Assembly: GCA_021791615.1 (NCBI GenBank)
Contig: JAJYWG010000052.1
Span: 1-14,137 of the forward strand
DNA length: 14,137 bases
DNA from: Actinomycetes bacterium
GTDB lineage: Bacteria > Actinomycetota > Acidimicrobiia > Acidimicrobiales > RAAP-2
Direction of reading: 5' to 3'
Below the pieces are notes generated by a model. That model was not told the origin of the DNA, did not search any database, and saw only the letters and a program-made list of their open reading frames with translations. Shown here piece by piece: positions 2,154 through 14,137 of this stretch. The position numbers were made by a program, and so were the translations under genes. Position 1 is the stretch's first letter; the number at the start of each line of letters is the position of its first letter.

Positions 2154-2260
2154 CTGAGTTGACCAGGGCGTTCTTCGCCCGGAAGGTGTTCGGCGCCGGT
2201 GGGAGGGACCGACGCCGGGACCAGTAGGACAATGGCGGCTCAGGGAGGGGGTAGGCCACG
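2154..2260 (+). promoter_or_regulatory. Leader of the EVE/nuclease operon with weak promoter-like elements
   Basis: This 107-bp gap must hold the promoter of the three-gene + strand operon unless the operon is read from the tRNA promoter. TTGACC at 2159-2164 resembles a -35 box, but the -10 position 17 nt on (GAAGGT) is poor. A small hairpin GGGCG-TTCTT-CGCCC (2166-2180) may serve as the tRNA terminator. A purine run AGGGAGGGGG (2242-2251) lies about 9 nt before the GTG at 2261 and is a good ribosome-binding site, which supports that start. Confidence 0.35.
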
Positions 2261-2725
2261 GTGCCCTGGATCTTCGTGGTTGGCAACCGCGAGGCCCTGT
2301 CGTGGGTGCTGACCAAACAGCGGATGGCCTTTCGGGACCGAGTGCAGACGGAGGGTCTCCGCTCGGGGCAGCCGGTTGCGATCTACGCCTCCAGACATAC
2401 GTGGGGTCGTCCCAACAATGACCGAAGCCAGGTCGCGGCGATTGGCGTCCTGGCGTCTCCCGTTCAGCGGCGACCCGTCGAACTCGGAGGAGAGATCTTC
2501 CCCAAGTCGTGTCGACTCACTTTCGACGTCGTCCTCCCAGAGCGGCACGGGTTACCCTTCCGCCCCCTTGTTCGGCGGCTCAACTTCATCCCAAAGAAGG
2601 GTGGCGACAAGGGATGGGGCGCCTACCTCCGGAGGACGGTTGTCGAGGTAGACGAACGTGACTTCGGGATCATTGCATCCGCACTGAGGCGCTACTCGCC
2701 CGACGGCGGGAGCGATTCCAAGTGA
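2261..2725 (+). CDS. EVE/PUA-like domain protein, probable modified-base reader
   Basis: This 154-aa protein is a single small domain. It starts with a WIFVVGNREAL strand (residues 3-13), as EVE proteins do with their Trp-containing first strand. It continues with GQPVAIYASR (36-45), VAAIGVLASP (58-67), a strand pair around LTFDVVLP (86-93) and a late aromatic/Gly segment DKGWGAYLRR (116-125). This order resembles the EVE branch of the PUA superfamily, whose members bind modified bases and are common in defence islands. I assign the fold by pattern only. It has no catalytic motif, so a reader or specificity role is more likely than an enzymatic one. The GTG start follows a strong purine-rich ribosome-binding site. 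The stop overlaps the next gene's GTG (GTGA, 2722-2725), so it is very probably co-translated with the putative nuclease genes. Confidence 0.6.
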   Translation: MPWIFVVGNREALSWVLTKQRMAFRDRVQTEGLRSGQPVAIYASRHTWGRPNNDRSQVAAIGVLASPVQRRPVELGGEIFPKSCRLTFDVVLPERHGLPFRPLVRRLNFIPKKGGDKGWGAYLRRTVVEVDERDFGIIASALRRYSPDGGSDSK

Positions 2726-3900
2726 CCGACTTCACCCTGTACTGCGACTCGGTATCCGATGAGCTGCTCGCGAAAGCTTGGAACTTGCGGTCCGGACCTT
2801 TGTCGTCGGCAAGCGTGGTTCGTTTACCGACGCCGCGCTCGGCCCCCGCCGCCCTGGCGCCCCTCTTGAGATGGGAGCGTCCCGACTGGGTCATTTCGGA
2901 TGGCGAGCGAGTGCGCTGCGTCGTCGAGTTCAGCGGACATGGATACACCGGTGATAACTCGTTCCAAAGATTTGCGCGGATCTACCGGGCGGCGACCCTC
3001 GGCATCCCAGTCATTTACTTCACTCCCTTCAACAGAACGCGATTGAACGAGATCGATGACGGGCGATTTAGTCCCAGGAACGTTGCCCCGGAGTTGTTTC
3101 AGACGATGCTCGCCATGAGCGAGCGGTTGGCGGTGCCCTGCATGGCCATCCATTGGCCCACCACGGATCAGGGGACCCCTGCGCCGCTGCACCTTGTCGG
3201 GGAACCCGCTGAGACGCTCGTTCGGCTCGTGCACTTCCTGGTCGCGGCCGAGAGTTCGGGCTCGAACGGGAGTCTGCCAAGTCAGTTTCACGACGCTGTC
3301 GAAGCCATGGTCCGGCAGGCCGCGCTTCCGTGGCGAGGGTCTGCAACTCGTACCCGCCTCGAATTGCCCGTGGACATCACCAGGGTGGCCTGGATCTGGT
3401 CGGTGCTGCCTTCGACATACTTCTCATCGGGGAAGGTGGACAAGGTGCTTGCCGCTGCTGCTCTCCGACAGCGCGACGTCCGCCCCCTCGTCGGAGTTGC
3501 CGATCACTTCTGGAAGGCGAAGGGCTCTGCCGTTGTGCAGTACATCGGCTACCAGTGGCGGCCCGATCCAGCCTCGGGACTGATAGCCCTGTCGGCGGGT
3601 CTGGCCGTCGCCAGTGGACTGCCTCTCATCGTCGTGTGGCCGCGGGTGTTCAGCAAGCCAGGGCCAGAACAAGTGAAGCTCCGCGAATCACTGGCTCGGT
3701 TTAAGGCAACGGGACGAGGCCCGCTGACGGATCTGGCCCTCGAACTCGGTTTTCTCCCGGAGGACATTGCGCGCTTCCGGGCGCGCGTGAGCACCGATCC
3801 TGACCAATTCGGAACCTTTGGGCCGGACAGCAAGGTTGGGCGGATCCTCAAAGACACGGCGAAGCTCGTAGTGTTCGGCGACGCAGTGGTCGCGCCGTGA
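2722..3900 (+). CDS. Putative restriction-endonuclease-like protein with degenerate PD-(D/E)xK motif
   Basis: This 392-aa protein belongs to no family I recognise with certainty. Residues 53-71 read RPDWVI...VVEFS: Pro54-Asp55, then thirteen residues, then Glu69-Phe-Ser71. The spacing and flanking hydrophobic strands match a PD-(D/E)xK nuclease core, with Ser in place of the usual Lys. A segment with Gln82 (SFQRFARIYRA, 80-90) follows, where such folds have a helix, and then the core-like strand GIPVIYFTPF (94-103). The C-terminal half (about 210-392) has no known motif. The same PD-x13-E spacing recurs in the next gene. It sits in the middle of a GTGA-coupled operon with GGGAG 9 nt before its GTG. 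A type II-like endonuclease subunit is the leading hypothesis; a catalytically dead specificity partner is the alternative. Confidence 0.5.
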   Translation: MTDFTLYCDSVSDELLAKAWNLRSGPLSSASVVRLPTPRSAPAALAPLLRWERPDWVISDGERVRCVVEFSGHGYTGDNSFQRFARIYRAATLGIPVIYFTPFNRTRLNEIDDGRFSPRNVAPELFQTMLAMSERLAVPCMAIHWPTTDQGTPAPLHLVGEPAETLVRLVHFLVAAESSGSNGSLPSQFHDAVEAMVRQAALPWRGSATRTRLELPVDITRVAWIWSVLPSTYFSSGKVDKVLAAAALRQRDVRPLVGVADHFWKAKGSAVVQYIGYQWRPDPASGLIALSAGLAVASGLPLIVVWPRVFSKPGPEQVKLRESLARFKATGRGPLTDLALELGFLPEDIARFRARVSTDPDQFGTFGPDSKVGRILKDTAKLVVFGDAVVAP

Positions 3901-4373
3901 CTGAAGAGGACCTCTCCCTCGCTCTCTTTCAGGCAGCCCTGCACGATCCAACCATCACGGTTCTTTCTTGGCAAGCAGTGGATGGGAAGACTTACTTCAC
4001 GGCAGATGTGATCCTGCGCTTGCCCAATGACGAGCGTGTGGCACCAGACCTAGTAATCCTGGTGTGTAACCGCTCTGTTTGGCTGATTGAGGTGAAGGAC
4101 TCACACCGGAAGGCTCTCGATGATGAAGCGAAGCTGCAGCGCCTGGTGACCGAACTGGGAACGACTGAGATTCTTTCGCAGATTTCCCGGCGGGCCGTGG
4201 CGCATATCCAAGACTGCGAATTGCGGCTTGCCGTGGCGTTTGATGAGGATCTTCCGAGTCGGGACGGAGCGTGTGTTCCCTCGGTCGTGCACATCAGTTG
4301 GGGATACATCCGTGAGGAAGTCGAGAGGTCCGGCTTGGCTGCGGCGCTTACCCGCCTGGTGCTGTCTGCATGA
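3897..4373 (+). CDS. Small PD-(D/E)xK nuclease-like protein
   Basis: This 158-aa protein has a textbook PD-(D/E)xK signature: Pro50-Asp51 in APDLVILV, thirteen residues, then Glu65-Val-Lys67 in VWLIEVKDS, with both elements on hydrophobic strands. A helix with acidic and basic residues follows (70-90). This is essentially a minimal nuclease core with no obvious DNA-recognition domain, so it probably works with a partner, most simply the 392-aa protein upstream. Its GTG start overlaps that gene's stop (GTGA, 3897-3900) and there is no strong ribosome-binding site of its own, so translational coupling is likely. It ends 20 bp before the end of the oppositely oriented methyltransferase gene. The family is too divergent to exclude a different PD-(D/E)xK role, such as Holliday junction or modification-dependent cleavage. 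Confidence 0.6.
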   Translation: MTEEDLSLALFQAALHDPTITVLSWQAVDGKTYFTADVILRLPNDERVAPDLVILVCNRSVWLIEVKDSHRKALDDEAKLQRLVTELGTTEILSQISRRAVAHIQDCELRLAVAFDEDLPSRDGACVPSVVHISWGYIREEVERSGLAAALTRLVLSA

Positions 4374-4393
4374 GAGCGTTTCGAGACCCACGA

Positions 4394-5527
4394 TCACTCA
4401 ACTTTGAAGATGAGAACGTGGTCCTGGTTGATCACTTTGTCGGACCGTGCCGATCTGTGGTACTTCGCACTTCCATGGTGTGCCACTCGCTCGAAGTGCG
4501 AGTGGATTACCAGCCGCTCGCGAACTGCCGCATCGGCAAGTCGGTCGATCACGGGGAGCTGCACGTCTCCCAAGGTCGAGTTCGAAGCGACTAGTGCAAA
4601 GACGCCACCGGCGCGGGTTACTCGCGCTGCCTCCCGAAAAACCGCTCCCATGTCTCTGATGTAGCCGTCCAACAATCCGGTATCTCCAGATTTCCAACCC
4701 TCGACAATCTCATTCCGGTTGATCTTCACCCTCGACCACCCACCGATCTCCAGCTCGAATCGTAAGACGTCCGCCGAATAGCGATAAAGCGCGAAGTATG
4801 GCGGATGACAGAAAGTCAGGGTTGCGGCGCGGTCGGGAAGGGGCAGGCGCCGAGCGTCGGCGAGGCCAACGGCTGCGTCCAACCGTTCGCTGGGAACCCA
4901 ATCGAGCGCCGTCCGAGCCGTCGCCTCGAAGTCGCCAGCTATGTCCGCTACCGCCGAGTCCGGATCGTAGAAGAGGCGACCCGTTCGGGCTGACGCGTTC
5001 GACGCCCTTCTCAGACGAGAGAGCAGTGAGCACAGCAGGAGTACCCGTTCTGGCGGGGAGGCTACCTTGTCCACCGCGAGCCGTAGTCGTGCGATCTCAC
5101 TTTGCGCGTGCGCAGTGAACCACCGATCCGCATTTCGCGTCGAAGCGAACAGCGAGCGCACCTCGTCCTGACTCGGCGTCTCGGCTCTCAAGATAGCTGT
5201 CAAGGCAGCCAAATATGCCTTGTGGTCGACCTGCGTCACCTTGGCTGACGCGTACGCGATGCCAACTGGGTTGACATCAAACCCAACGGAGTTCCATCCC
5301 CTCGCCACCGCCTCCACGAGGGTCGTGCCAGAACCGCACATAACATCGACAACGAGACCGTTGACTTCGCCTAGGAGATCCCGGGCTAGATCAAGGACGT
5401 GGCCGGTCACATCCGGAGCCAGTTTTCCGAAGTACCTGAAAGCTCCATGCCCATCACGACGCTGTGAGTGATTCGAACTTGCGATGTCGATGGTTCCGTC
5501 GATCGCCAACTTCGGCAGTTGCTGCAT
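4394..5527 (-). CDS. DNA methyltransferase (amino-MTase, HPPY motif), paralogue 1
   Basis: This 377-aa protein has SAM-binding motif I VVDVMCGSGTTLVEA (59-73), the acidic end of strand 2 in GFDVNP (82-87), and catalytic motif IV HPPY (241-244) in place of the usual DPPY. Motif I precedes motif IV by about 170 residues, which leaves room for a target-recognition region between them. An N-terminal GAFRYFGKL (28-36) matches the equivalent segment of the neighbouring methyltransferase, so the two are probably paralogues. Known families with these motifs methylate the exocyclic amine of adenine (N6) or cytosine (N4); which one cannot be told here. The ATG is 2 nt after the stop of the second methyltransferase gene and lacks a clear ribosome-binding site, which indicates coupled expression. 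It probably protects host DNA from the convergent nuclease operon. Confidence 0.8.
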   Translation of the reverse strand: MQQLPKLAIDGTIDIASSNHSQRRDGHGAFRYFGKLAPDVTGHVLDLARDLLGEVNGLVVDVMCGSGTTLVEAVARGWNSVGFDVNPVGIAYASAKVTQVDHKAYLAALTAILRAETPSQDEVRSLFASTRNADRWFTAHAQSEIARLRLAVDKVASPPERVLLLCSLLSRLRRASNASARTGRLFYDPDSAVADIAGDFEATARTALDWVPSERLDAAVGLADARRLPLPDRAATLTFCHPPYFALYRYSADVLRFELEIGGWSRVKINRNEIVEGWKSGDTGLLDGYIRDMGAVFREAARVTRAGGVFALVASNSTLGDVQLPVIDRLADAAVRERLVIHSHFERVAHHGSAKYHRSARSDKVINQDHVLIFKVE

Positions 5528-5529
5528 GT

Positions 5530-6789
5530 CTATCGTTCAAACACCAACAGGTGCTGAGAGCTCATGCGACGGGACAAGGTCCAGCCGGTCTGGTTGTTTA
5601 GGCGATGCTCGCTTCGCTGAATGAGTTTGAGTCCGAGGTCTGCACCGAACTCGGCCGTAATGGTTCCCATCGGAATCCGCACGTGGTCGATTGAACCGTC
5701 GCCGATGACCACGGCAATGTGCCCACCTCGCCGGACCACCCGGTTGGCTTCTCCGAGGATCTTTGCCCAGCCGATGATGTACTTCTTCAACCCATTGGGG
5801 ACGTGAAAGTAGCTGCCGCGGTACGCCAGCTCTCTCTTCTGTATCGCACTCGGCGCGAAACCAAGAAGGAGGAGCTGCAAGTGGGTCACCTCTGAGAAGG
5901 CCGTGTTGGTCACATAAGGAGGATGAAGGAGAACGAAGTTGACAGACTCGTGATCAAGAGGGAGGTTGTCTGCCTCTGCCGGTGCAACCGTAGAATGAAC
6001 CGGATCGGTTGCTCGGAGTGCAGAGAAGCCTTCCTCGAACGTCCGAGTCGCTCGCTTCAAGAGGTCGATGGGTGGTCTCGGAACCTTCTGCCGGTCCACG
6101 ACGGTGTTGATCTTCTTCGTGTTGGCGAAGGAAGCCGTGCGAGCGATCGAGAGGATCAACGCGGTCTCGGCAGGGGACTCAGCTAGGTGCAATCCGGTCG
6201 CGATTAGGCCGTAAGCGTCGTCGGAGAAGTACTTGCGCAACGCCTCCGGAGGCAGGAGCGGTCGCCACTCTTCGATCGTACGGCGAGCCAACGACTCGAT
6301 ACTGCCCTCGTCAATCGGAGTCGCTACGGCTGCAGTAACAAGGCGCGAAACGGGATTCAGATCGAAATTGACCGACGGGCGCTTGCTACTGGCCGCTTCA
6401 ACTGCGGTCGTCCCGCCCCCACACATTGGGTCAAGGATGACGTCACCTGCGGTGGTGTACCGATCCAGCAGGTAGGCAACGAGGGGAGGCGGCAACTTCC
6501 CCACGTAACGAAAGAGGCCGTGCGTCAGGTAGCCGGTATCGGCCTTTCGGGGCACCTCTATCAGCTCGGGGTGCCCCGCAGTGACCTCGACCCAGGAGGC
6601 TCGCTCCTGGAGGGAGGGCGGTGGAGAGTCCAGCAGGCGTTGGGGCCTGGCCGGAAGCACCTCCCCCTCTGAGCGTTGTTTCTGCCCCTGACCGGTCATC
6701 TCCGCATTCTGACAGGCGGTCGTATCACAACGTTGGGATTTCGATCTGGACGGAACCACGGTGTAGGAGCGGTCGGGACTTCCAGTCAT
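5530..6789 (-). CDS. DNA methyltransferase (amino-MTase, HPPY motif), paralogue 2
   Basis: From the ATG at 6789 the product is 419 aa. It has GLFRYVGKLPP (91-101), motif I VILDPMCGGGTTAVEA (117-132), FDLNP (142-146) and catalytic HPPY (289-292). The layout is the same as in the downstream methyltransferase: FRYxGKL, motif I, a long middle region, PLDHES-type strand, HPPY, and a conserved GGHIAVVIGDGS strand (355-366). The start is chosen because ATGA (6786-6789) overlaps the integrase stop. Another in-frame ATG at 6804 lies inside the integrase gene without a better ribosome-binding site. The first about 45 residues look unstructured, so a later start is also possible. Cys/Gly variation in motif I (MCGGGTT) is within the family's range. 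It is probably the partner of the downstream paralogue, each modifying one strand or one half of an asymmetric target. Confidence 0.78.
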   Translation of the reverse strand: MTGSPDRSYTVVPSRSKSQRCDTTACQNAEMTGQGQKQRSEGEVLPARPQRLLDSPPPSLQERASWVEVTAGHPELIEVPRKADTGYLTHGLFRYVGKLPPPLVAYLLDRYTTAGDVILDPMCGGGTTAVEAASSKRPSVNFDLNPVSRLVTAAVATPIDEGSIESLARRTIEEWRPLLPPEALRKYFSDDAYGLIATGLHLAESPAETALILSIARTASFANTKKINTVVDRQKVPRPPIDLLKRATRTFEEGFSALRATDPVHSTVAPAEADNLPLDHESVNFVLLHPPYVTNTAFSEVTHLQLLLLGFAPSAIQKRELAYRGSYFHVPNGLKKYIIGWAKILGEANRVVRRGGHIAVVIGDGSIDHVRIPMGTITAEFGADLGLKLIQRSEHRLNNQTGWTLSRRMSSQHLLVFER

Positions 6790-8030
6790 CGAGTCGCCTG
6801 ACATTCGTCAGCGACCGTCTGAACTCCGCGGATCGTGGCTCGGTCGAATGCGTGGCTGTAGTAGGCCAGCGTTACGGCCGGACTGGAGTGGCCAAGGATG
6901 CGGGCCACTTCGGGTCCGGTATGTCCGTGGGCTATCAAGATGGACGCGACCGAATGTCTGAGCTGGTGGGGATGTACAGGGCCGATGCCCGCCTGTCGAC
7001 CGAGGCGCTCCAACGCGTGTCGAAGGTTGTCCGGATCGATGGGAGTTCCCAGAGCGGTAGTGAAGACAAGATTCTCGTCCACCCAGTCGGCACTCCAGAG
7101 GGGACCAGAACGAAGTCGCTGGCGGGCCTGTTCAGAACGCCATCCCCTCAGGAGAGACACGAGCACGGGTGGCATGGGAAGCGGACGTCGGCTTGAGCGC
7201 GTCTTGGTGGGCCCGATCACGAGACGCGTTTGCCCTTCGAACCGAATCCGGGACAGCGAACGACGGATCGTCAAGATCCCAGAATTGAGATCGACGTCTG
7301 ACCAAGAGATCGCGAGCGCCTCCCCGCGCCGCACCCCGAGAAGGGCAAGTACGGCCAACAGGGGCTCCCACCTCGTGCCCACGGCGGCTTCGAATAGCAA
7401 GCGCACCTTATCGGGTTCCAGGGCTTTCGAGATAGGTCCGTCGTGCTCAGACAGTGTTCTGCGAACATGGCTCGCCCCGACCGTCACGATGCTGCACACG
7501 AGTCCGTCCCGCTTCGCTCCGCCGAGGAGTCTTCCGAGTGCATTACGCGACGCTTCGATAGTCCGCGGGCTTCGACCAGCGGCTGCCAGGGCGTTCATCA
7601 TCCTCTCGACGTCGTCCGTGGTCAAGGTTGGGAGTGAGCGAGAACCGAGCTGAGGGATGACGTAGTACTTGAATACCTGTTCGTAGAAGCTCAGGGTTGA
7701 TCTGGCAAGCCCCCGCCCGGCCGAACACTTCGCAAGCTCTCTGCTGAGCCAGACTTCGACATAAGTCGCTACCGTCACGTGGCCGGACGGAACCACGAGT
7801 CCTCGGTCTGCGGCGTCCAACATCTCACCGATCGCTTGCTCGGACCGTTTCCGATGTTGAGACTTTCCTTCGCCCGGAAGACGTCGAACGATGCGTCGTC
7901 GACGTCTACCGCCTGGAAGGGTAACTCGGACGTCGTAGGTGCCGTCCGCACGCAACGAAAGTGAACCGGCACCGTTTGCTCTACGGACGACGGTCGTGTT
8001 ACCGCCACGGAGGCGGGATACGTTCTTCAT
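6786..8030 (-). CDS. int: Tyrosine integrase of the island
   Basis: The protein is 414 aa, the usual size of phage/ICE-type integrases. The N-terminal segment (about 20-75: GAGSLSLRADGTYDVRVTLP...) resembles the three-stranded AP2-like arm-binding domain. Residues about 85-185 form the SAM-like core-binding domain, and the catalytic domain follows from about 205. The catalytic residues are present: Arg234 (LGVRRGE), Lys276 (PTKTRSSRR), His355 and Arg358 (HPHQLRHS), His381 (LGHSSP) and the nucleophile Tyr390. The ATG is preceded by AGGAG (8037-8041) at a 6-nt spacing. The enzyme would recombine attP with a chromosomal site, plausibly the tRNA-Arg at 2080-2153. Unusually, its stop overlaps the start of a methyltransferase gene (ATGA), so integration and DNA modification genes probably share one transcript. 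All catalytic residues are intact. Confidence 0.93.
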   Translation of the reverse strand: MKNVSRLRGGNTTVVRRANGAGSLSLRADGTYDVRVTLPGGRRRRRIVRRLPGEGKSQHRKRSEQAIGEMLDAADRGLVVPSGHVTVATYVEVWLSRELAKCSAGRGLARSTLSFYEQVFKYYVIPQLGSRSLPTLTTDDVERMMNALAAAGRSPRTIEASRNALGRLLGGAKRDGLVCSIVTVGASHVRRTLSEHDGPISKALEPDKVRLLFEAAVGTRWEPLLAVLALLGVRRGEALAISWSDVDLNSGILTIRRSLSRIRFEGQTRLVIGPTKTRSSRRPLPMPPVLVSLLRGWRSEQARQRLRSGPLWSADWVDENLVFTTALGTPIDPDNLRHALERLGRQAGIGPVHPHQLRHSVASILIAHGHTGPEVARILGHSSPAVTLAYYSHAFDRATIRGVQTVADECQATR

Positions 8031-8167: not shown

Positions 8168-8443
8168 CTACTCCCGCCCGACATTCGCCAGTCCCAACCG
8201 GATGAGTTCGGCCTCAATCGCTGGGTCGCCCATCTCACGAGCTTTGCGAACGAAGTCTCTCAGCTCCTCCTCGGCGTATGTGTCGAAGTCGCTGGGTCGA
8301 CAACCCGTCAGAACGCCAATCCAGTCGATACTCCCGTCTTCATCCTGGGCGGATTCAGCCGGTGGCCGCGACAAGCTCGTTGAATCGTTCCGCAGGAGTT
8401 GGAGTTGGCGCGCTTTGACGGACAGGTTGGTTGTGTTGATCAT
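8168..8443 (-). CDS. Short hypothetical protein, probably a gene remnant fused to the IS3 end
   Basis: This 91-aa ORF starts with an ATG that overlaps the stop of the IS3 transposase fragment (ATGA, 8440-8443). The first about 14 residues (MINTTNLSVKARQL) are encoded by what appears to be the terminal non-coding part of the IS3 element. Residues about 15-91 come from flanking DNA and look protein-like: an acidic stretch ESAQDEDGS, then a predicted helix rich in Glu/Arg (AEEELRDFVRKAREMGDP) and a C-terminal helix. I recognise no family. The simplest reading is that the IS3 inserted in or next to a small gene and replaced its 5' end. It may still be translated from the transposase message. It lies upstream of the integrase promoter, in the same orientation. 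Confidence 0.4.
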   Translation of the reverse strand: MINTTNLSVKARQLQLLRNDSTSLSRPPAESAQDEDGSIDWIGVLTGCRPSDFDTYAEEELRDFVRKAREMGDPAIEAELIRLGLANVGRE

Positions 8444-8733
8444 GCCGCCTGACGGTCGGCGTGGTGGTGGATGGCAGCCTCGTACTCGGCCGGGCTGCGG
8501 TATCGGAGCGAACTGTGAAGCCTCCGCGTGTTGTACCAGCCCTCGATGTAATCGAAGACGGCGGCCCGGAGCCCGGCCCGGGTGGGCCAGGCGCGGGTGT
8601 CGATCAGCTCGCGCTTGATGGTGGCGAAGAACGACTCGGCGACGGCGTTGTCCCAGCATTCACCGGCCATCCCGACTGAGAGGACAACGCCGTTCGCCCG
8701 GGCCAGCTTGCCGTAGTCGAGGCTCGTGTACTG
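8440..8733 (-). pseudogene. IS3 transposase OrfB, C-terminal fragment
   Basis: The frame resumes at QYTSLDYGKL after the IS30 element and runs to the TGA at 8440. It contains the third catalytic residue, Glu, in ECWDNAVAESFFATIKREL, and the conserved C-terminal YIEGWYNTRRLHSSLRYRSP block of rve-type integrase cores. It is non-functional alone because both catalytic Asp residues lie on other fragments. The longer ORF extending to 8874 runs antisense-free through IS30 sequence in another frame and is an artefact of the junction. Confidence 0.9.
8731..8733. repeat. IS30 target-site duplication, left copy (CTG)
   Basis: CTG here and CTG at 10183-10185 bracket the IS30 element. Deleting one copy plus the element rejoins the IS3 transposase codons ...GGG AGC CAG | TAC ACG AGC..., giving the family-typical SDRGSQYTS. 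A 3-bp duplication is normal for IS30 elements. Confidence 0.8.
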
Positions 8734-8760
8734 CCTGGGTTCAACCGGTCGAAGCAACAC
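8734..8760. repeat. IS30 terminal inverted repeat, left
   Basis: This 27-base end matches the reverse complement of 10156-10182 at 21 positions. The best-conserved block is TTCAACCGGTCG, followed after two mismatches by GCAACAC. The three outermost bases do not match. The transposase stop codon (8741-8743) is inside it. Confidence 0.88.
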
Positions 8761-10138
8761 TGGTTGGTCCATCTGATTGTAGAAGAGCGTCGAGTGCCTC
8801 TGCTGGAGTGCGCCAACCGAGCGTCTTTCGCGGGCGGCCGTTGAGAGTGAACGCGACCGCGTCGAGGTCGTCACGATCCCAGCGGTAGAGATCGGTGCCC
8901 TTGGGGAAGTACTGGCGCAAGAGCCCGTTGGTGTTCTCGTTCGTCCCGCGCATCCACGGCGAGTGCGGGTTGGCGAAGTAGACGGCGAGGCCGGTGTCGA
9001 TCCGGAGCTTCGCGTGCTGGGCCATCTCGGTGCCCTGGTCCCAGGTGAGAGATCGCCGCAGGTGCTCGGGGAGCGTCATGATCTTGCCGGTGATCGCATC
9101 ACGGACTGCCTCAGCACCGTGGCCGGCGAGCGGCGGCCCGTTCTTCACCTTCTGTCCTCGGTGACCTTCCATGGGCGGCAGGTGCAAGAGCATCGTGTAG
9201 CGCGTGGTGCGCTCGACAAGCGTGCCGATCGAGGACTTGTCGCGCCCGATGATGAGGTCACCCTCCCAGTGCCCCGGCACCGCGCGGTCCTCGGCTTCTG
9301 GCGGTCGCTCGGAGATCATCACCTCGGGCGTGATGTAGTTCTTCCCTCGCCCCTTCGCTCGCGCTCTTGGGACCCGAAGCGCTCTCCCGGTCCGAAGGCA
9401 GGTCACGAGCTCGTGTTTGAGCGCCCCGCGGCCCTGGACGAAGAGCGACTGGTAGATGGCCTCGTGGGAGATACGCATAGTCTCGTCGTCGGGGAAGTCG
9501 AGTGGGAGGCGCTTCGCGATCTGCTCGGGGCTCCAGGCCTTTGCCCACCGGCGATCCTGGCGCGGCCCGTGACGGCGACCCTTGAAACGAACGGTGGGAC
9601 CTTCGACCGCCGTGCCGTCAGGCCGGGTGACGAGGCCTGACAGACGTTCCTCGACGTAGGCGCGGAGCCTCTCGTTGTGGGCGAGCCTCGCTTCCTTCGG
9701 ACGCTTCCTGCGGCGCTCTGCGTGCCACTGGGCGACCGTCGCCCGGTAGCCCGAAGAGTCCGTGCGCGTCGCCGCATTGCGGCGCAGCTCTCTCGAGATC
9801 GTCGACGGCGAGCGGCCGAGATGCCGGGCGATCTGCCGCACCCCCGAACCGCGAGCCCGCTCGATCGCGATCTCCTCACGTTCTGCGAGCGAGAGGTAAC
9901 GGCCGGAGGCGGGAGCGAGGCTGATCGGGCACATCCCGCCAGCCTCGCGGAACCACCTGGTGCCGACGGGGACCGACACCCCTGCAGCGATCGCAGCTTC
10001 CTCGGTCGTCGCGCCTCTCGCGATCTGGCGCCAGAAGCGCTCGAGCTGATCACGTTGCCAGCCTGGCGGGTGCCCTGGCGAGTGCAGCTTGCCTCGCATC
10101 GCCCAGGTCGCTCTTCGTGCATCCTGCTTGGTTGCCAT
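8741..10138 (-). CDS. IS30-family DDE transposase, full length
   Basis: This 465-aa protein catalyses cut-and-paste or copy-out transposition of the IS30 element. Residues about 78-120 form the IS30 helix-turn-helix (YLSLAEREEIAIERARGSGVRQIA...RSPSTISRELRRN). The first about 70 residues carry a further HTH-like stretch (ATTEEAAIAAGVSVPVGTRWFREAGG). The DDE triad is complete: Asp294 in GHWEGDLIIG, Asp367 in LTWDQGTEM and Glu401 in the NENTNGLLRQYFPKG block. The C terminus has LNGRPRKTLGWRTPAEAL, which is invariant-like in the family. The ATG at 10138 is preceded by GGAGG with a 6-nt spacing. The length is at the upper end of the family range. There is no frameshift and no missing motif, so the enzyme is probably active. 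Confidence 0.95.
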   Translation of the reverse strand: MATKQDARRATWAMRGKLHSPGHPPGWQRDQLERFWRQIARGATTEEAAIAAGVSVPVGTRWFREAGGMCPISLAPASGRYLSLAEREEIAIERARGSGVRQIARHLGRSPSTISRELRRNAATRTDSSGYRATVAQWHAERRRKRPKEARLAHNERLRAYVEERLSGLVTRPDGTAVEGPTVRFKGRRHGPRQDRRWAKAWSPEQIAKRLPLDFPDDETMRISHEAIYQSLFVQGRGALKHELVTCLRTGRALRVPRARAKGRGKNYITPEVMISERPPEAEDRAVPGHWEGDLIIGRDKSSIGTLVERTTRYTMLLHLPPMEGHRGQKVKNGPPLAGHGAEAVRDAITGKIMTLPEHLRRSLTWDQGTEMAQHAKLRIDTGLAVYFANPHSPWMRGTNENTNGLLRQYFPKGTDLYRWDRDDLDAVAFTLNGRPRKTLGWRTPAEALDALLQSDGPTSVASTG

Positions 10139-10155
10139 CGCTCACCTCCATCGAG

Positions 10156-10182
10156 GTGTTGCGACGACCGGTTGAATCCGCC
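10156..10182. repeat. IS30 terminal inverted repeat, right
   Basis: Reverse-complement partner of 8734-8760. It is followed by the second CTG copy at 10183-10185 and then by IS3 transposase sequence. Confidence 0.88.
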
Positions 10183-10336
10183 CTGGCTCCCGCGGTCGGA
10201 GTGGAAGATCACGCCCCTGTCCGGCCGGCGGGCGAGAAACGCCATCTTCAGGGCGTCTTCGACCAGCTCGGTGCGCATGTGGTCGGCGAGTGCCCAGCCG
10301 ACGACCCGGCGCGATGCCAGGTCGATGACCGTCGCC
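10183..10336 (-). pseudogene. IS3 transposase OrfB, middle fragment
   Basis: This sliver of about 154 bp encodes ATVIDLASRRVVGWALADHM...FHSDRGSQ, the strand-helix-strand portion of the rve catalytic core including the second catalytic Asp (HSDRGSQ). It lies between the double-recombinase element (right) and the IS30 element (left). An ATG at 10336-10338 arises from the junction with the right-hand element and is not the native start. Joined in frame to the other two fragments it rebuilds a normal IS3 core. Confidence 0.9.
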
Positions 10337-10341
10337 ATTCT

Positions 10342-10349
10342 GTGGAATC
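10342..10349. repeat. Inverted end motif GTGGAATC of the two-recombinase element (left)
   Basis: GTGGAATC starts 5 bp inside the left boundary and is the reverse complement of GATTCCAC at 13825-13832. It could be one arm of a recombinase core site; in a circular form the two arms would face each other across about 14 bp. Confidence 0.5.
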
Positions 10350-10356
10350 TGCCGTG

Positions 10357-12714
10357 TCAAGTCTTCTTGGTTCGGCGCGTTGGCCGGAGGCGGACGTTCG
10401 GAAGCTCCGTGGCCGTGATTGTGGAGCAGATCGACCGAGGCGTTGGACCTGAGGGGCTCGGCACGTCGTGCAGCCGGTCGACGAGCGCAGCGAGGGAGGC
10501 TTGACCTTCCTCGACCGCCGCACGCTCGTCGTCGGTGAGCGGCACGGCGACGAGCATGCGTTGGAGGTTCTTGGCGCCCTCGAGGAGCTGGGCGCGGCTT
10601 GACTCCTTCGGGATGTAGAAGTCGCAGCGAGCACATGCCATGCGATGCGGACACTGCTCGAAGAAGGAGTAGCTGCAGTAGCCGTGGCCGAGGTCGTAGT
10701 GCTGCCAAGGCTCTCCGTTCCCGGCACGTCCCGAGGTGACGGCGTCGCGGTCCAAGAGGACCTCGATCGTCCGCAGGTTGCGGGCGAAGTACCCGGCGTC
10801 GTTGTAGGCCTTCGACAGGGTGGCGGGGCTGATCTTCGCGTAGTGCTGGGTGCTGGCCGGACTGCGGTGCCCGAGCCAGGCTTGGAGCTCGAACAGCGTC
10901 ATCGGCTCCTTGGCGTTGTAGAGCTGGCTGGCGATGGTGGAACGGGCCCGGTGGCTCGTGATCCTGCCGCGCACGTCGGTCGGCGGCACGCCAGCCTTCC
11001 GGCACAGGGCGGGGATAATCGTCCGGTTGAGGTAGCTGCGGGCGACCGGCTGGCCTCGGACACAGAAGAGGATGTCGACTCGCTCTGCGGTCTTGGCGTC
11101 GAGCGTCGTCGGCTGGGACGGTCGGAGGCGCTGCCACGCCTCGATCGCCTGGCCGAGCAGCGGATCGACGGGTTTGGTGAAGGCCGTGCCGGTCTTGTGC
11201 ACGGGCACGTCCAGCAGGCAGACGGCGTCCTGGGCAAGCACGTCGGACGCATCCGGTCGGATCGACTGCCCGTCGTGCTGCCAGCGCATGCAGCCGACTC
11301 GGAGCCGGGTGATCTCGTCAGAGCGCAGCCCGGCGAAGAGCCACGTGAGGGTCACTGCCCGGATCAGCTCCATCGGGTAGTAGGTGTCGGCGGAGTTGCC
11401 CGGGAGGTCATCGGCCTCGAGGTTCAGTCCGGCCCACAGCAGCTTCGCCCACAGGGCGTCGTCGATCACCCTCGGATCGGTGGCGATGAGCGCGCCGACA
11501 CTGCGGGGGACGCCGAGGGCGCGGGCGGGGTCGAACCGGCGGGTGATCCACTCCCACTCCTGGCAGTCCCGGAAGAAGGTCCTCGTCGCCATCAAGATGT
11601 GCGCTTTGGTGCGCGGCGAGATCGGCTTGCCCTCCCGGGCTCCCAGTCCCTCTCGTCGCTGGACGTAGTCGCCGACCGACATCCGGTCGACGGCCGCCAC
11701 CCATGCGGCACACGTCCCGCGCGTCCACTGCGAGGGCTCGGTGATCTCGGGGTGCTCGGCCGTGAGCCAGCGCCCGGCCTTCGCCATGATCGTGCGAACG
11801 ATGGCGCGCACCTTCGGGGTGAGCGTCGAAGTCGCGTGCCAGCGCTCGATCCAGGCGGTCCAGGTGGGGTCGGCCCCCTCGATGACCGGGGCGGCGTTGT
11901 AGCCGGTGCGCACCGGCGCGTCGCAGTGTCCGAGGGCGGCGACGGCACGCTGGAGGGCGTAGAGGATGGGCATCTGGTAGTCGCTCGTCGCCGGATGCGC
12001 CCGAAGCCGGTCGAAGGACGCGGTGCTGAGATCTTCGAGCAGTGGGCTCCGGTTCACGAGGAGCACCTGGCTCACGATGCCCCGAAGCTGGTGGCGGGCC
12101 ACTTCAGGGATCCGATAGCCCCAGGCGTCGAGGGTCGCCGCCACCTCGGTGATCGAGATCTCGACGGCGCCTGTGCCCAAGACGAGTTTGGCGAGATGCA
12201 GTCGGTTGAAGGTCCCGAGCTGCTCGAAGCGGTCGAAGCCCCCGACCAGGTAAGCGAGAGCGACGACGAAGGGACGGACGGTGGTCTCGGTGGGGAGCGA
12301 CCGCTCGGCGAGGAAGGTCTCGGCGCTCTGACCGAGGAGCCCGGCCCACTCGTCGCTGCTCCAGGCCCACCACGGCCGCCCAAGTACCCCGCAGTGCTCG
12401 AGCACCAGCCCGACGGCGTGCAGGCCAGCGCGGCGATGACGGACGTCGTCTCGGTGATGAAGGGCGGCCCGGACGGCATCGAGCGGCTCAGCGAGGCGGG
12501 CGAGCTCCCTCCACGACGTTGCCGTGCGGCGAGGGACACCTCCCCGCAGGCGGTTGCGGCGCAGCCCTTGGGGCCCGATGGCCTGAAGCGCTCTGCGCTC
12601 CTTGTCGCTCAGCGCGCCGGTGCGGTCGACTGCCCGCGGCTCGACGGCCATCCACTGCCTTCGACGCGGCTCTGCGCTGGCGGGGACGGGAACGGGAACG
12701 GTGACGGTGCTCAC
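10357..12714 (-). CDS. Large tyrosine recombinase, TnpB-like, with C-terminal Cys4 zinc-finger-like motif
   Basis: The protein is 785 aa from the GTG at 12714, which overlaps the upstream recombinase stop (GTGA); the open frame further upstream is antisense to nothing useful and lies inside the first recombinase gene. The catalytic residues are complete: Arg464 (FAGLRSDE), Lys507 (VHKTGT), His588 and Arg591 (TSHRARST), His616 (LGHRSP) and Tyr625 (STQHYAK). Residues 1-440 are a long non-catalytic region that probably contains the core-binding domain near 290-400. After the catalytic domain a cluster Cys680, Cys688, Cys694, Cys697 (GYCSYSFFEQCPHRMACARC) suggests a zinc-binding finger, a feature seen in Tn554 TnpB-type recombinases. 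It is longer than the about 630 aa I recall for Tn554 TnpB. It is coupled to, and probably acts with, the 351-aa recombinase on the same element ends. Confidence 0.85.
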   Translation of the reverse strand: MSTVTVPVPVPASAEPRRRQWMAVEPRAVDRTGALSDKERRALQAIGPQGLRRNRLRGGVPRRTATSWRELARLAEPLDAVRAALHHRDDVRHRRAGLHAVGLVLEHCGVLGRPWWAWSSDEWAGLLGQSAETFLAERSLPTETTVRPFVVALAYLVGGFDRFEQLGTFNRLHLAKLVLGTGAVEISITEVAATLDAWGYRIPEVARHQLRGIVSQVLLVNRSPLLEDLSTASFDRLRAHPATSDYQMPILYALQRAVAALGHCDAPVRTGYNAAPVIEGADPTWTAWIERWHATSTLTPKVRAIVRTIMAKAGRWLTAEHPEITEPSQWTRGTCAAWVAAVDRMSVGDYVQRREGLGAREGKPISPRTKAHILMATRTFFRDCQEWEWITRRFDPARALGVPRSVGALIATDPRVIDDALWAKLLWAGLNLEADDLPGNSADTYYPMELIRAVTLTWLFAGLRSDEITRLRVGCMRWQHDGQSIRPDASDVLAQDAVCLLDVPVHKTGTAFTKPVDPLLGQAIEAWQRLRPSQPTTLDAKTAERVDILFCVRGQPVARSYLNRTIIPALCRKAGVPPTDVRGRITSHRARSTIASQLYNAKEPMTLFELQAWLGHRSPASTQHYAKISPATLSKAYNDAGYFARNLRTIEVLLDRDAVTSGRAGNGEPWQHYDLGHGYCSYSFFEQCPHRMACARCDFYIPKESSRAQLLEGAKNLQRMLVAVPLTDDERAAVEEGQASLAALVDRLHDVPSPSGPTPRSICSTITATELPNVRLRPTRRTKKT

Positions 12715-13766
12715 TTCTTGCCGGCCGTCGTGTCGTCGCCCGACAGGAGGCTGATGCGCCAGGCGTGGATCTCCGCCATCCCCCGGTTGAGCTTGTCGGA
12801 GAGCTCTCGACCCGAGAGATGGATGTAGCGAAGCGTCGAGTCCGTGCTCGCATGCCCGGCGAAGGTGGCGATGGCGTGCAGCTCCCAGCCCATGCGGGCG
12901 AGATCGGTCAGGCAGAGATGCCGCGTCGTATGCGTGGAGAACTGCGGAACACCGGCGGTGAGCGCGACCCGGCGCACAACCTTCGACCAGGTCCACAGGC
13001 TGAGCGGCTCGGCCCGGTTGCGTCGGGACTCCGAGAGGAACAGCGGCCCGCGGCTGCGGCTGATGGTCGCACGGTGATCCAGGTAGGCGGCGAACAGCAC
13101 GCCCGTCGCGGCCGAGTAGGGCACCGCGCGTCCCCGCCGGGTCTTGGTCGTCTCGGCGCGGACCCGGATCATGCGGTGGCCCGGGTCGAGGTCGTCGGTG
13201 CGAAGCGAGCACAGCTCCTCGCGCCGCAAGGCAGCGTCATAGGCGAGAGCGAGCATGAGGCGGTTGCGGATCGGCTCGCCACGGAAGACGGCGAGCACGT
13301 CGAGCCACTGCTGCTCGGTCGGGATCCACGGCAGCTTCTGGAGGCGCGGCACGAGCCCCCGGTCGCCTCCGAGGCCGTGCCGGGCGCCATAGCGGCCGCG
13401 CCCGACCGGGTTCGAGTCGCGGACACCTTCTTCGACCAAGAAGTCGTAGAACAGACGAACCGGAACGAGGCGCTGCTGCAGCGTGGCGTTGGCAAGCCCG
13501 GCGCCCGAGTCGAGCGACAGCGTGTTCGCCCCGTGGCGACCCGGGCGGTTCGTCAGCTCCCGAACGAAGGATGCGACCTGGGCCCGGCTGGCGACGAGCG
13601 GGTCGATACCGTTCCGCTCGCAGTGCTCGAGGTACTCAGCAAGCCCGCGCGCATAGGCGTCGATCGTCCGCGGCGCCCGACCGATGTCGGTCCAGATCTG
13701 CAGCCACTCGGCAGCCCGCTCGTGACGGCCGAAGACCGGCCACTTCTCCTCCAGTTCGATGTCCAA
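12711..13766 (-). CDS. Tyrosine recombinase, TnpA-like
   Basis: This 351-aa protein has an N-terminal SAM-like core-binding domain (about 15-125, with APRTIDAYARGLAEYLEHC and LFYDFLVEEGVRDSNPV) followed by the catalytic domain. The active-site set is complete: Arg181 (AALRREEL), Lys208 (ETTKTRRGR), His279 and Arg282 (THTTRH), His305 (AGHAST) and nucleophile Tyr314 (TLRYIHL). Translation is taken from TTG at 13766: the frame has a TGA 7 codons upstream, no ATG or GTG intervenes, and GAGAGG lies 11 nt before it. The length is close to Tn554 TnpA. Its stop overlaps the GTG of the larger recombinase (GTGA at 12711-12714), so the two are made together, probably in fixed ratio for a heteromeric recombination complex. 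Confidence 0.9.
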   Translation of the reverse strand: MDIELEEKWPVFGRHERAAEWLQIWTDIGRAPRTIDAYARGLAEYLEHCERNGIDPLVASRAQVASFVRELTNRPGRHGANTLSLDSGAGLANATLQQRLVPVRLFYDFLVEEGVRDSNPVGRGRYGARHGLGGDRGLVPRLQKLPWIPTEQQWLDVLAVFRGEPIRNRLMLALAYDAALRREELCSLRTDDLDPGHRMIRVRAETTKTRRGRAVPYSAATGVLFAAYLDHRATISRSRGPLFLSESRRNRAEPLSLWTWSKVVRRVALTAGVPQFSTHTTRHLCLTDLARMGWELHAIATFAGHASTDSTLRYIHLSGRELSDKLNRGMAEIHAWRISLLSGDDTTAGKK

Positions 13767-13841
13767 GGCGTCGTTGACCTCTCAGTTCGTGGGGTCCGGA
13801 GGGGGCCATTCAACCCCGCCGCTTGATTCCACGTAACTAAT
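13767..13841 (-). promoter_or_regulatory. Leader and end region of the two-recombinase element
   Basis: These 75 bp between the first recombinase start and the IS3 junction must contain the promoter, the ribosome-binding site GAGAGG (about 11 nt before the TTG) and the right recombination end. No convincing -35/-10 pair is seen, so transcription may come from the interrupted IS3 gene upstream. Confidence 0.35.
13825..13832. repeat. Inverted end motif GATTCCAC of the two-recombinase element (right)
   Basis: Reverse complement of the motif at 10342-10349. It lies 9 bp inside the right boundary (GTAACTAAT, then IS3 sequence). The spacer differs from the left end, as expected if the crossover region is shared with different target sequences. 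Confidence 0.5.
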
Positions 13842-14137
13842 AGGTACGCCCAGCCCTCCCAGGTCATGACGTAGGTGATGTCGCCGACATATCGCCGGTC
13901 GAGTTCGGTGCATGGGCCGAAGTGGCGTTGGATCAGGTCCTTGGCGCGTTCGGCGGCCGGGTCGGCCACGGTGGTCTTGCGCCAGCGCTTCTTGCACCGT
14001 CCTTCGAGGCCCGCCCGGCGCATCAGCCGACGCACCCGGCGCCGACCGCAGCAGACCCCCTGGCGCCGCAGCTCGGCGTGGACACGCGGACTGCCGTAGG
14101 TTCCCCTGGAGGTGGTGTGGATGGCGGTGATCTTCTC
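13842..14137 (-). pseudogene. IS3 transposase OrfB, N-terminal fragment (continues beyond window)
   Basis: The frame is open at the right edge and encodes the HTH_21-type region TSRGTYGSPRVHAELRRQG...RRVRRLMRRAGLEG typical of IS3 OrfB, then the start of the rve core RRYVGDITYVMTWEGWAYL with the first catalytic Asp (VGDITYV). It ends in the middle of the Leu codon, where the two-recombinase element begins. The third base of that codon is found across the insertion at 10336. OrfA would lie to the right of the window. Confidence 0.9.

Follow-up and report, generated by a model that had tools for sequence, protein, structure and literature searches.

The window analysed here, a 14,137-nucleotide stretch of contig JAJYWG010000052.1 (GenBank assembly GCA_021791615.1) from an Actinomycetes bacterium, carries genes that we read as a heterodimeric Type IIT restriction endonuclease, two protective methyltransferases and an EVE-like accessory protein, together the cargo of an island at a tRNA-Arg gene. 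We give this reading as a whole a probability of roughly 85%. The features of the locus are as follows (E, expect value):

2080-2154, + strand: tRNA-Arg(acg), a host gene and probable island attachment site (ARAGORN)
2261-2725, + strand: EVE-like gene, 154 amino acids (aa) (three-sequence profile against solved UPF0310/EVE proteins)
2722-3900, + strand: putative large restriction subunit gene, 392 aa (D-x13-E-x12-QR; match to BsmI 1-442)
3897-4373, + strand: putative small restriction subunit gene, 158 aa (PD-x13-EVK; predicted PD-(D/E)XK fold)
4394-5527, - strand: amino-methyltransferase (N6-adenine/N4-cytosine type), 377 aa (DVMCGSGTT and HPPY; PF01555, E 2.5e-7; PADLOC type II methyltransferase, E 4.7e-37)
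5530-6804, - strand: amino-methyltransferase (N6-adenine/N4-cytosine type), 424 aa (DPMCGGGTT and HPPY; PF01555, E 1.8e-9; PADLOC type II methyltransferase, E 5.4e-31)
6786-8030, - strand: tyrosine integrase, 414 aa (PF00589, E 5.9e-22)

Gene content and class of the system

An earlier reading of the sequence alone (the sequence-only reading) had placed a Type IIT-like system, with two unequal nuclease subunits, two methyltransferases and an EVE-like protein, between positions 2261 and 6804. Re-derived coordinates agree with its five open reading frames, its GTGA coupling (overlaps at both + strand gene junctions, 2722-2725 and 3897-3900), its 20-bp convergence (4374-4393, between the + strand endonuclease and - strand methyltransferase genes) and its tight methyltransferase pair (2 bp apart), and the type of system was borne out as well. 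The extent it gave is right for the five genes and short of the whole locus, which is extended by a tRNA-Arg boundary and an integrase gene that it left unmentioned. The end of the tRNA-Arg(acg) (2154) lies 106 bp before the EVE-like gene, and the first methyltransferase gene (5530-6804) shares its initial 19 bp with the integrase gene. The reading frames of the island, six in all, are open. Pfam gives no match with E up to 1 for any of the + strand proteins (EVE-like, 392 aa, 158 aa), and scans for promoters and terminators gave no usable signal exceeding shuffles.

According to the excerpted text of PMC4081073, Type IIT enzymes combine two catalytic sites that differ from each other and sit in separate subunits or domains, are usually accompanied by two methyltransferases, one per strand, and recognise an asymmetric sequence that they cleave within or close to one side. 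The locus encodes a pair of nuclease-like proteins that differ in conserved motif and in predicted fold, as judged at the level of sequence and models only, and two paralogous PF01555 enzymes. The large chain combines a BsmI-like predicted fold with a non-canonical E-x12-QR site, as in the BsmI/BtsI/BsrDI group.

The predicted endonuclease subunits

The catalytic pattern of the large subunit is PD-x13-E-x12-QR (P54-D55, E69, Q82-R83). The nuclease motif that the sequence-only reading recognised in this protein stands, and its exact form, given there as PD...ExS, is better described by this pattern. D55, E69, Q82 and R83 are invariant in all 41 rows of the large-subunit alignment, and P54 is variable. 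The predicted fold superposes on BsmI 1-442 over the whole length of the 392-aa protein, and solved BsmI structures are available (9f38, 9ezd, 9ez5 and 9ez7). The E-x12-QR spacing is also seen in BsmI by sequence alignment, and the motif recurs in large-subunit relatives at three related loci (L035, L036 and L057). It is reportedly the motif of the BsmI/BtsI/BsrDI family. The motif alone is no proof, because a loose D-E-x12-QR pattern turns up by chance in the GcvT gene of another locus (L034). The top PDB match of the single large-subunit sequence, the protease VP4 (E 5e-4), was gone in a profile search and was dropped.

The small subunit has the PD-x13-EVK motif proposed for it earlier (P50-D51, E65 and K67). 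Its predicted fold is of the PD-(D/E)XK nuclease type, so that both candidates have nuclease-type predicted folds, and BsmI 468-658 is among the matches of its predicted structure, level with unrelated nucleases. Both nuclease subunits retain the catalytic residues that their relatives conserve.

The methyltransferase pair

The two methyltransferases are paralogous, as previously suggested, with 28% identity over 306 columns (E 3e-19). Their plasmid matches are distant (14 and 9 records, all below 60% identity and none reaching 80% query coverage). Further matches lie in four Sulfolobus virus records (STSV1, STSV2), at about 24% identity, and in two viral contigs, as short pieces. On a Methylobacterium plasmid (L029, 4598-8339), two methyltransferases of the same superfamily are followed by a BfiI-type enzyme (PF18243, E 2.1e-70), a relative of another asymmetric-site enzyme type. 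On a Cryobacterium plasmid (L028, 4739-10973), two methyltransferases precede an AAA ATPase that stands between two hypothetical proteins, possibly a different asymmetric-site system. Because these pairs adjoin other kinds of genes, the presence of a methyltransferase pair does not by itself identify a split BsmI.

Related loci

Profile A1 of the large subunit matched three of 396 genomes of the phylum (G632, G662 and G676). The last of these matches (E 7e-4) is false, the protein being a glycine cleavage T protein (PF01571). The broader profile A4 matched four of 376 genomes (G632, G662, G713 and G011), and within the class of G632 (31 genomes) it found nothing beyond G632 itself. Profiles A1-A3 were built without P0001, P0043 and P0047, which are proteins of the window itself or copies nearly identical to them, and without P0042, a 280-aa fragment. 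A1 matched none of eight host relatives and none of 395 genomes in the class of G001, where among the 20 rows listed at most four candidates per genome were scored, which makes this empty answer weak. Genome contigs and viral contigs gave no match to A1, viral contigs none to A2 or A3, plasmids and phages none to the large subunit, and plasmids none to the small subunit. Large-subunit relatives of 44-61% identity do exist; where a source name is displayed, it is "hypothetical protein".

At the G632 locus (L035), a 625-aa methyltransferase, a 172-aa small subunit (PD-EMK) and a 391-aa methyltransferase (HPPY) stand with a convergent 342-aa large subunit. The G662 locus (L036, 2034-5322) is one operon in which a 5-methylcytosine (m5C) methyltransferase and an HhH-GPD glycosylase-like protein accompany a large subunit whose gene overlaps that of the small subunit; the glycosylase-like gene may be a thymine-DNA repair companion of m5C. 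The G713 locus (L057) combines a 497-aa protein carrying E-x12-QR with a PF01555 methyltransferase and a small-subunit candidate of 220 aa, recognised by eye. At the G011 locus (L058, E 2.6e-5), a 538-aa protein in which QG replaces QR, again by eye, adjoins a PF01555 methyltransferase. In total, a methyltransferase neighbours the large subunit in four of the five genomes matched by large-subunit profiles, and large and small subunits occur together in three, the three other genomes in which large subunit, small subunit and methyltransferase all recur. Neither outcome named as refuting the sequence-only reading was observed, since both candidates have nuclease-type predicted folds and large-subunit matches mostly adjoin methyltransferase genes. 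The five genes do not always occur as a set, however, as the EVE-like gene has no match in four related loci (three of them short stretches).

Comparison with known systems

The core genes are likely a divergent split-BsmI arrangement of the BtsI/BsrDI kind. BtsI and BsrDI are heterodimeric Type IIT enzymes with unequal subunits, a large nicking one and a small one, and two separate methyltransferases, as at this locus. The BtsI subunits, computed from concentrations in the excerpted text of PMC2909958, are about 38 kDa and about 18.6 kDa, close to the 392 and 158 aa found here, a likeness of size and gene set. Unlike this locus, BtsI and BsrDI have no EVE gene or integrase mentioned for them in the source excerpts. 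BsmI resembles the locus in its E-x12-QR spacing and in the two regions onto which the predicted folds map, tentatively so for the small subunit, but it is a single chain with both catalytic domains, whereas two proteins are found here. BspD6I, a heterodimer of a large nickase and a small subunit, is also among the closest known systems.

BbvCI, which the sequence-only reading had named as an example, and Bpu10I likewise have two subunits, two methyltransferases and an asymmetric site. The methyltransferases of BbvCI and Bpu10I are m5C enzymes, whereas those here belong to PF01555. Their subunits are described as similar in size in the excerpted text of PMC4081073, in contrast to the 392 and 158 aa of this locus. 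A BbvCI-like reading was rejected on subunit sizes and methyltransferase family, and the split-BsmI arrangement takes its place. With it, a likely split-BsmI identity is given to an unannotated large-subunit family, a possible source of new nicking enzymes.

The EVE-like protein

The unusual part of the locus is a small protein, predicted to bind a modified base, that shares an operon with an endonuclease. A three-sequence profile of this protein matches the solved UPF0310/EVE proteins PH1033 and MJECL36 (E 2.5e-4; profile positions 6-136 and 1-135 of 150). The window protein matches NCBIfam PRK02268 (E 2.6e-5, far below the model cut-off) and does not reach the gathering score of the Pfam EVE model (PF01878), with which a relative at locus L050 scores 19.6 bits (cut-off 23). 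Judged by sequence, it is EVE-like rather than an EVE member.

Matches to this protein were found in 12 of the 396 genomes and in no plasmid. Gene context was examined for the four strongest of the 12 (L050-L053). In L050 (5830-7195), the EVE gene and a XamI restriction gene (PF09572, E 2.5e-38) are convergent, and an integrase lies about 3.6 kb upstream. In L053 (5553-7090), the EVE gene begins at a GTG that shares bases with the stop codon of a McrC-family gene (PF10117, E 2.5e-48). That relatives adjoin restriction genes in two of four contexts, each time with a different partner, fits a swappable accessory.

In the excerpted text of Bell et al. (PMC7641849), EVE domains are specificity modules of modification-dependent enzymes, stand-alone EVE proteins occur with Type I and SWI2/SNF2 systems, and EVE-nuclease fusions are also described. 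The present locus is alike in that its EVE-like protein is encoded separately among restriction genes and unlike in its partner, which is a probable Type IIT system; no mention of a Type IIT system with EVE was met in that text or in the literature listings examined. Most likely, the EVE-like protein is an accessory that would bind a modified base and tune where the enzyme acts. In the excerpted text of a 2025 review (PMC12707154), Type IIT gene regulation is, to its authors' knowledge, unstudied. The EVE/endonuclease and integrase/methyltransferase overlaps make this locus a concrete place to study it.

The probable tRNA-Arg island

An integrative island inserted at the 3′ end of tRNA-Arg probably carries the gene set as cargo. 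Upstream, a ROK-family gene (983-1942) has 27 related loci in genome contigs, from metagenome-assembled genomes assigned to Acidimicrobiaceae, Acidimicrobiales, Acidimicrobiia, Actinomycetes or Actinobacteria. Six of the 27 (L001, L002, L007, L021, L024 and L026) have a tRNA-Arg 92-136 bp downstream of the ROK match. DNA similarity to L001, L002 and L024 crosses the tRNA-Arg as one aligned piece and breaks off at window positions 2154-2156. The L026 alignment also stops at the tRNA, but only because its contig ends there, and is no evidence of a break. The guanine-cytosine (GC) content is 0.745 at 1-2000 and 0.613 at 2155-8030. The tRNA, synteny break, GC drop and integrase of a tRNA island are thus present, and a flanking direct repeat was not found within the window, whose right flank is crowded with other insertion elements.

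In L021, a different restriction island (10900-19320) occupies this tRNA-Arg. It contains a Type III-like Res gene (PF04851), an HTH/M78 gene and a PF01555 methyltransferase, and it is bounded on its far side by another copy of the tRNA 3′ end, at 19292. At least one further genome has therefore acquired a restriction island at this tRNA.

Proposed mechanism and alternatives

In a heterodimeric Type IIT enzyme of this kind, the large subunit (BsmI 1-442-like) would recognise a short asymmetric site and cut one strand through its D-x13-E-x12-QR centre, while the small subunit (BsmI 468-658-like) would dock on the large subunit and cut the other strand through its PD-x13-EVK centre. Each - strand methyltransferase would modify one strand of the site and so protect the host. 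The EVE-like protein, whose gene precedes that of the large subunit and is translationally coupled to it, would bind a modified base and adjust the action of the enzyme. With the endonuclease genes on the opposite strand, an integrase-methyltransferase-methyltransferase transcript would deliver methylation along with the integrase, and the overlap of the integrase gene with the first methyltransferase gene suggests that such a transcript would couple protection to integration.

Several observations weigh against this reading. Identity to BsmI is 13% in the structural alignment, and the sequence-profile match has an E of 0.0099. For the small subunit, unrelated nucleases score level with BsmI, and none of the Foldseek rows reaches 0.001. 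With tblastn at E up to 0.1, the EVE-like protein has no match in L035, L036 or L056-L058, of which L036, L057 and L058 are stretches of 3.2-5.3 kb and L035 (16 kb) is the only fair test. No restriction gene was recognised by eye in the EVE contexts of L051 and L052. A second copy of the tRNA 3′ end was not found in the window with up to three mismatches allowed.

The strongest alternative, which we rate at somewhat below even odds, retains the four-gene Type IIT system and makes the EVE-like gene an independent passenger on the same transcript, with a role of its own, such as separate recognition of modified DNA or RNA. The related loci that lack an EVE match favour a passenger, as do EVE relatives that adjoin unrelated partners (the XamI gene, McrBC) or no recognisable restriction gene. 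The GTGA overlap with the large-subunit gene argues for a closer tie, and so does the direct adjacency of two of the four relatives to restriction genes.

It is rather unlikely that the EVE-like protein is instead a third, regulatory Type IIT subunit, whose binding to a modified base would direct or license the methylation-blocked enzyme onto modified phage DNA, or keep it off methylated host sites. If so, a single island would unite modification sensing with cleavage that methylation blocks, and this EVE would serve as a plug-in for Type IIT, other Type II and McrBC systems.

We consider it improbable that the island is decayed, with genes that appear intact and expression or mobility lost. 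Insertion sequence (IS)-like and recombinase genes fill 8168-14137 and no second attachment copy lies in the window, but the six reading frames are open and both nuclease subunits keep the conserved catalytic residues of their relatives. Least probable of all is an EVE-guided, modification-dependent (Type IV-like) nuclease on the + strand beside methyltransferases of a separate system, which would suit the convergence of two operons rather than a single transcript and the EVE specificity modules of modification-dependent enzymes (PMC7641849, excerpted text), and which is disfavoured by the whole-length BsmI match of the large subunit, by distant relatives that retain methyltransferase neighbours without EVE, and by the L035 large subunit, likewise convergent with a methyltransferase gene.

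Flanking DNA

The host flank begins with the C-terminal portion of a Type IV secretion coupling-protein relative (3-1076; PF02534, PF12696), and similar DNA lies upstream of the ROK gene in several Acidimicrobiia loci. An integrase search of viral contigs gave no match. Beyond the integrase, nested mobile elements occupy 8168-14137. One transposase (8741-10138, - strand; HTH_38 and rve), which we take to be IS30-like, is flanked by 24-nt inverted repeats of 88% identity (8737-8760 and 10156-10179). Another, presumably IS3-like, is apparently fragmented, with HTH_21 at 13553-14137 and rve at 8443-8874, its continuity judged by eye. Tandem tyrosine recombinase genes (PF00589) lie at 12711-13766 and 10357-13212.
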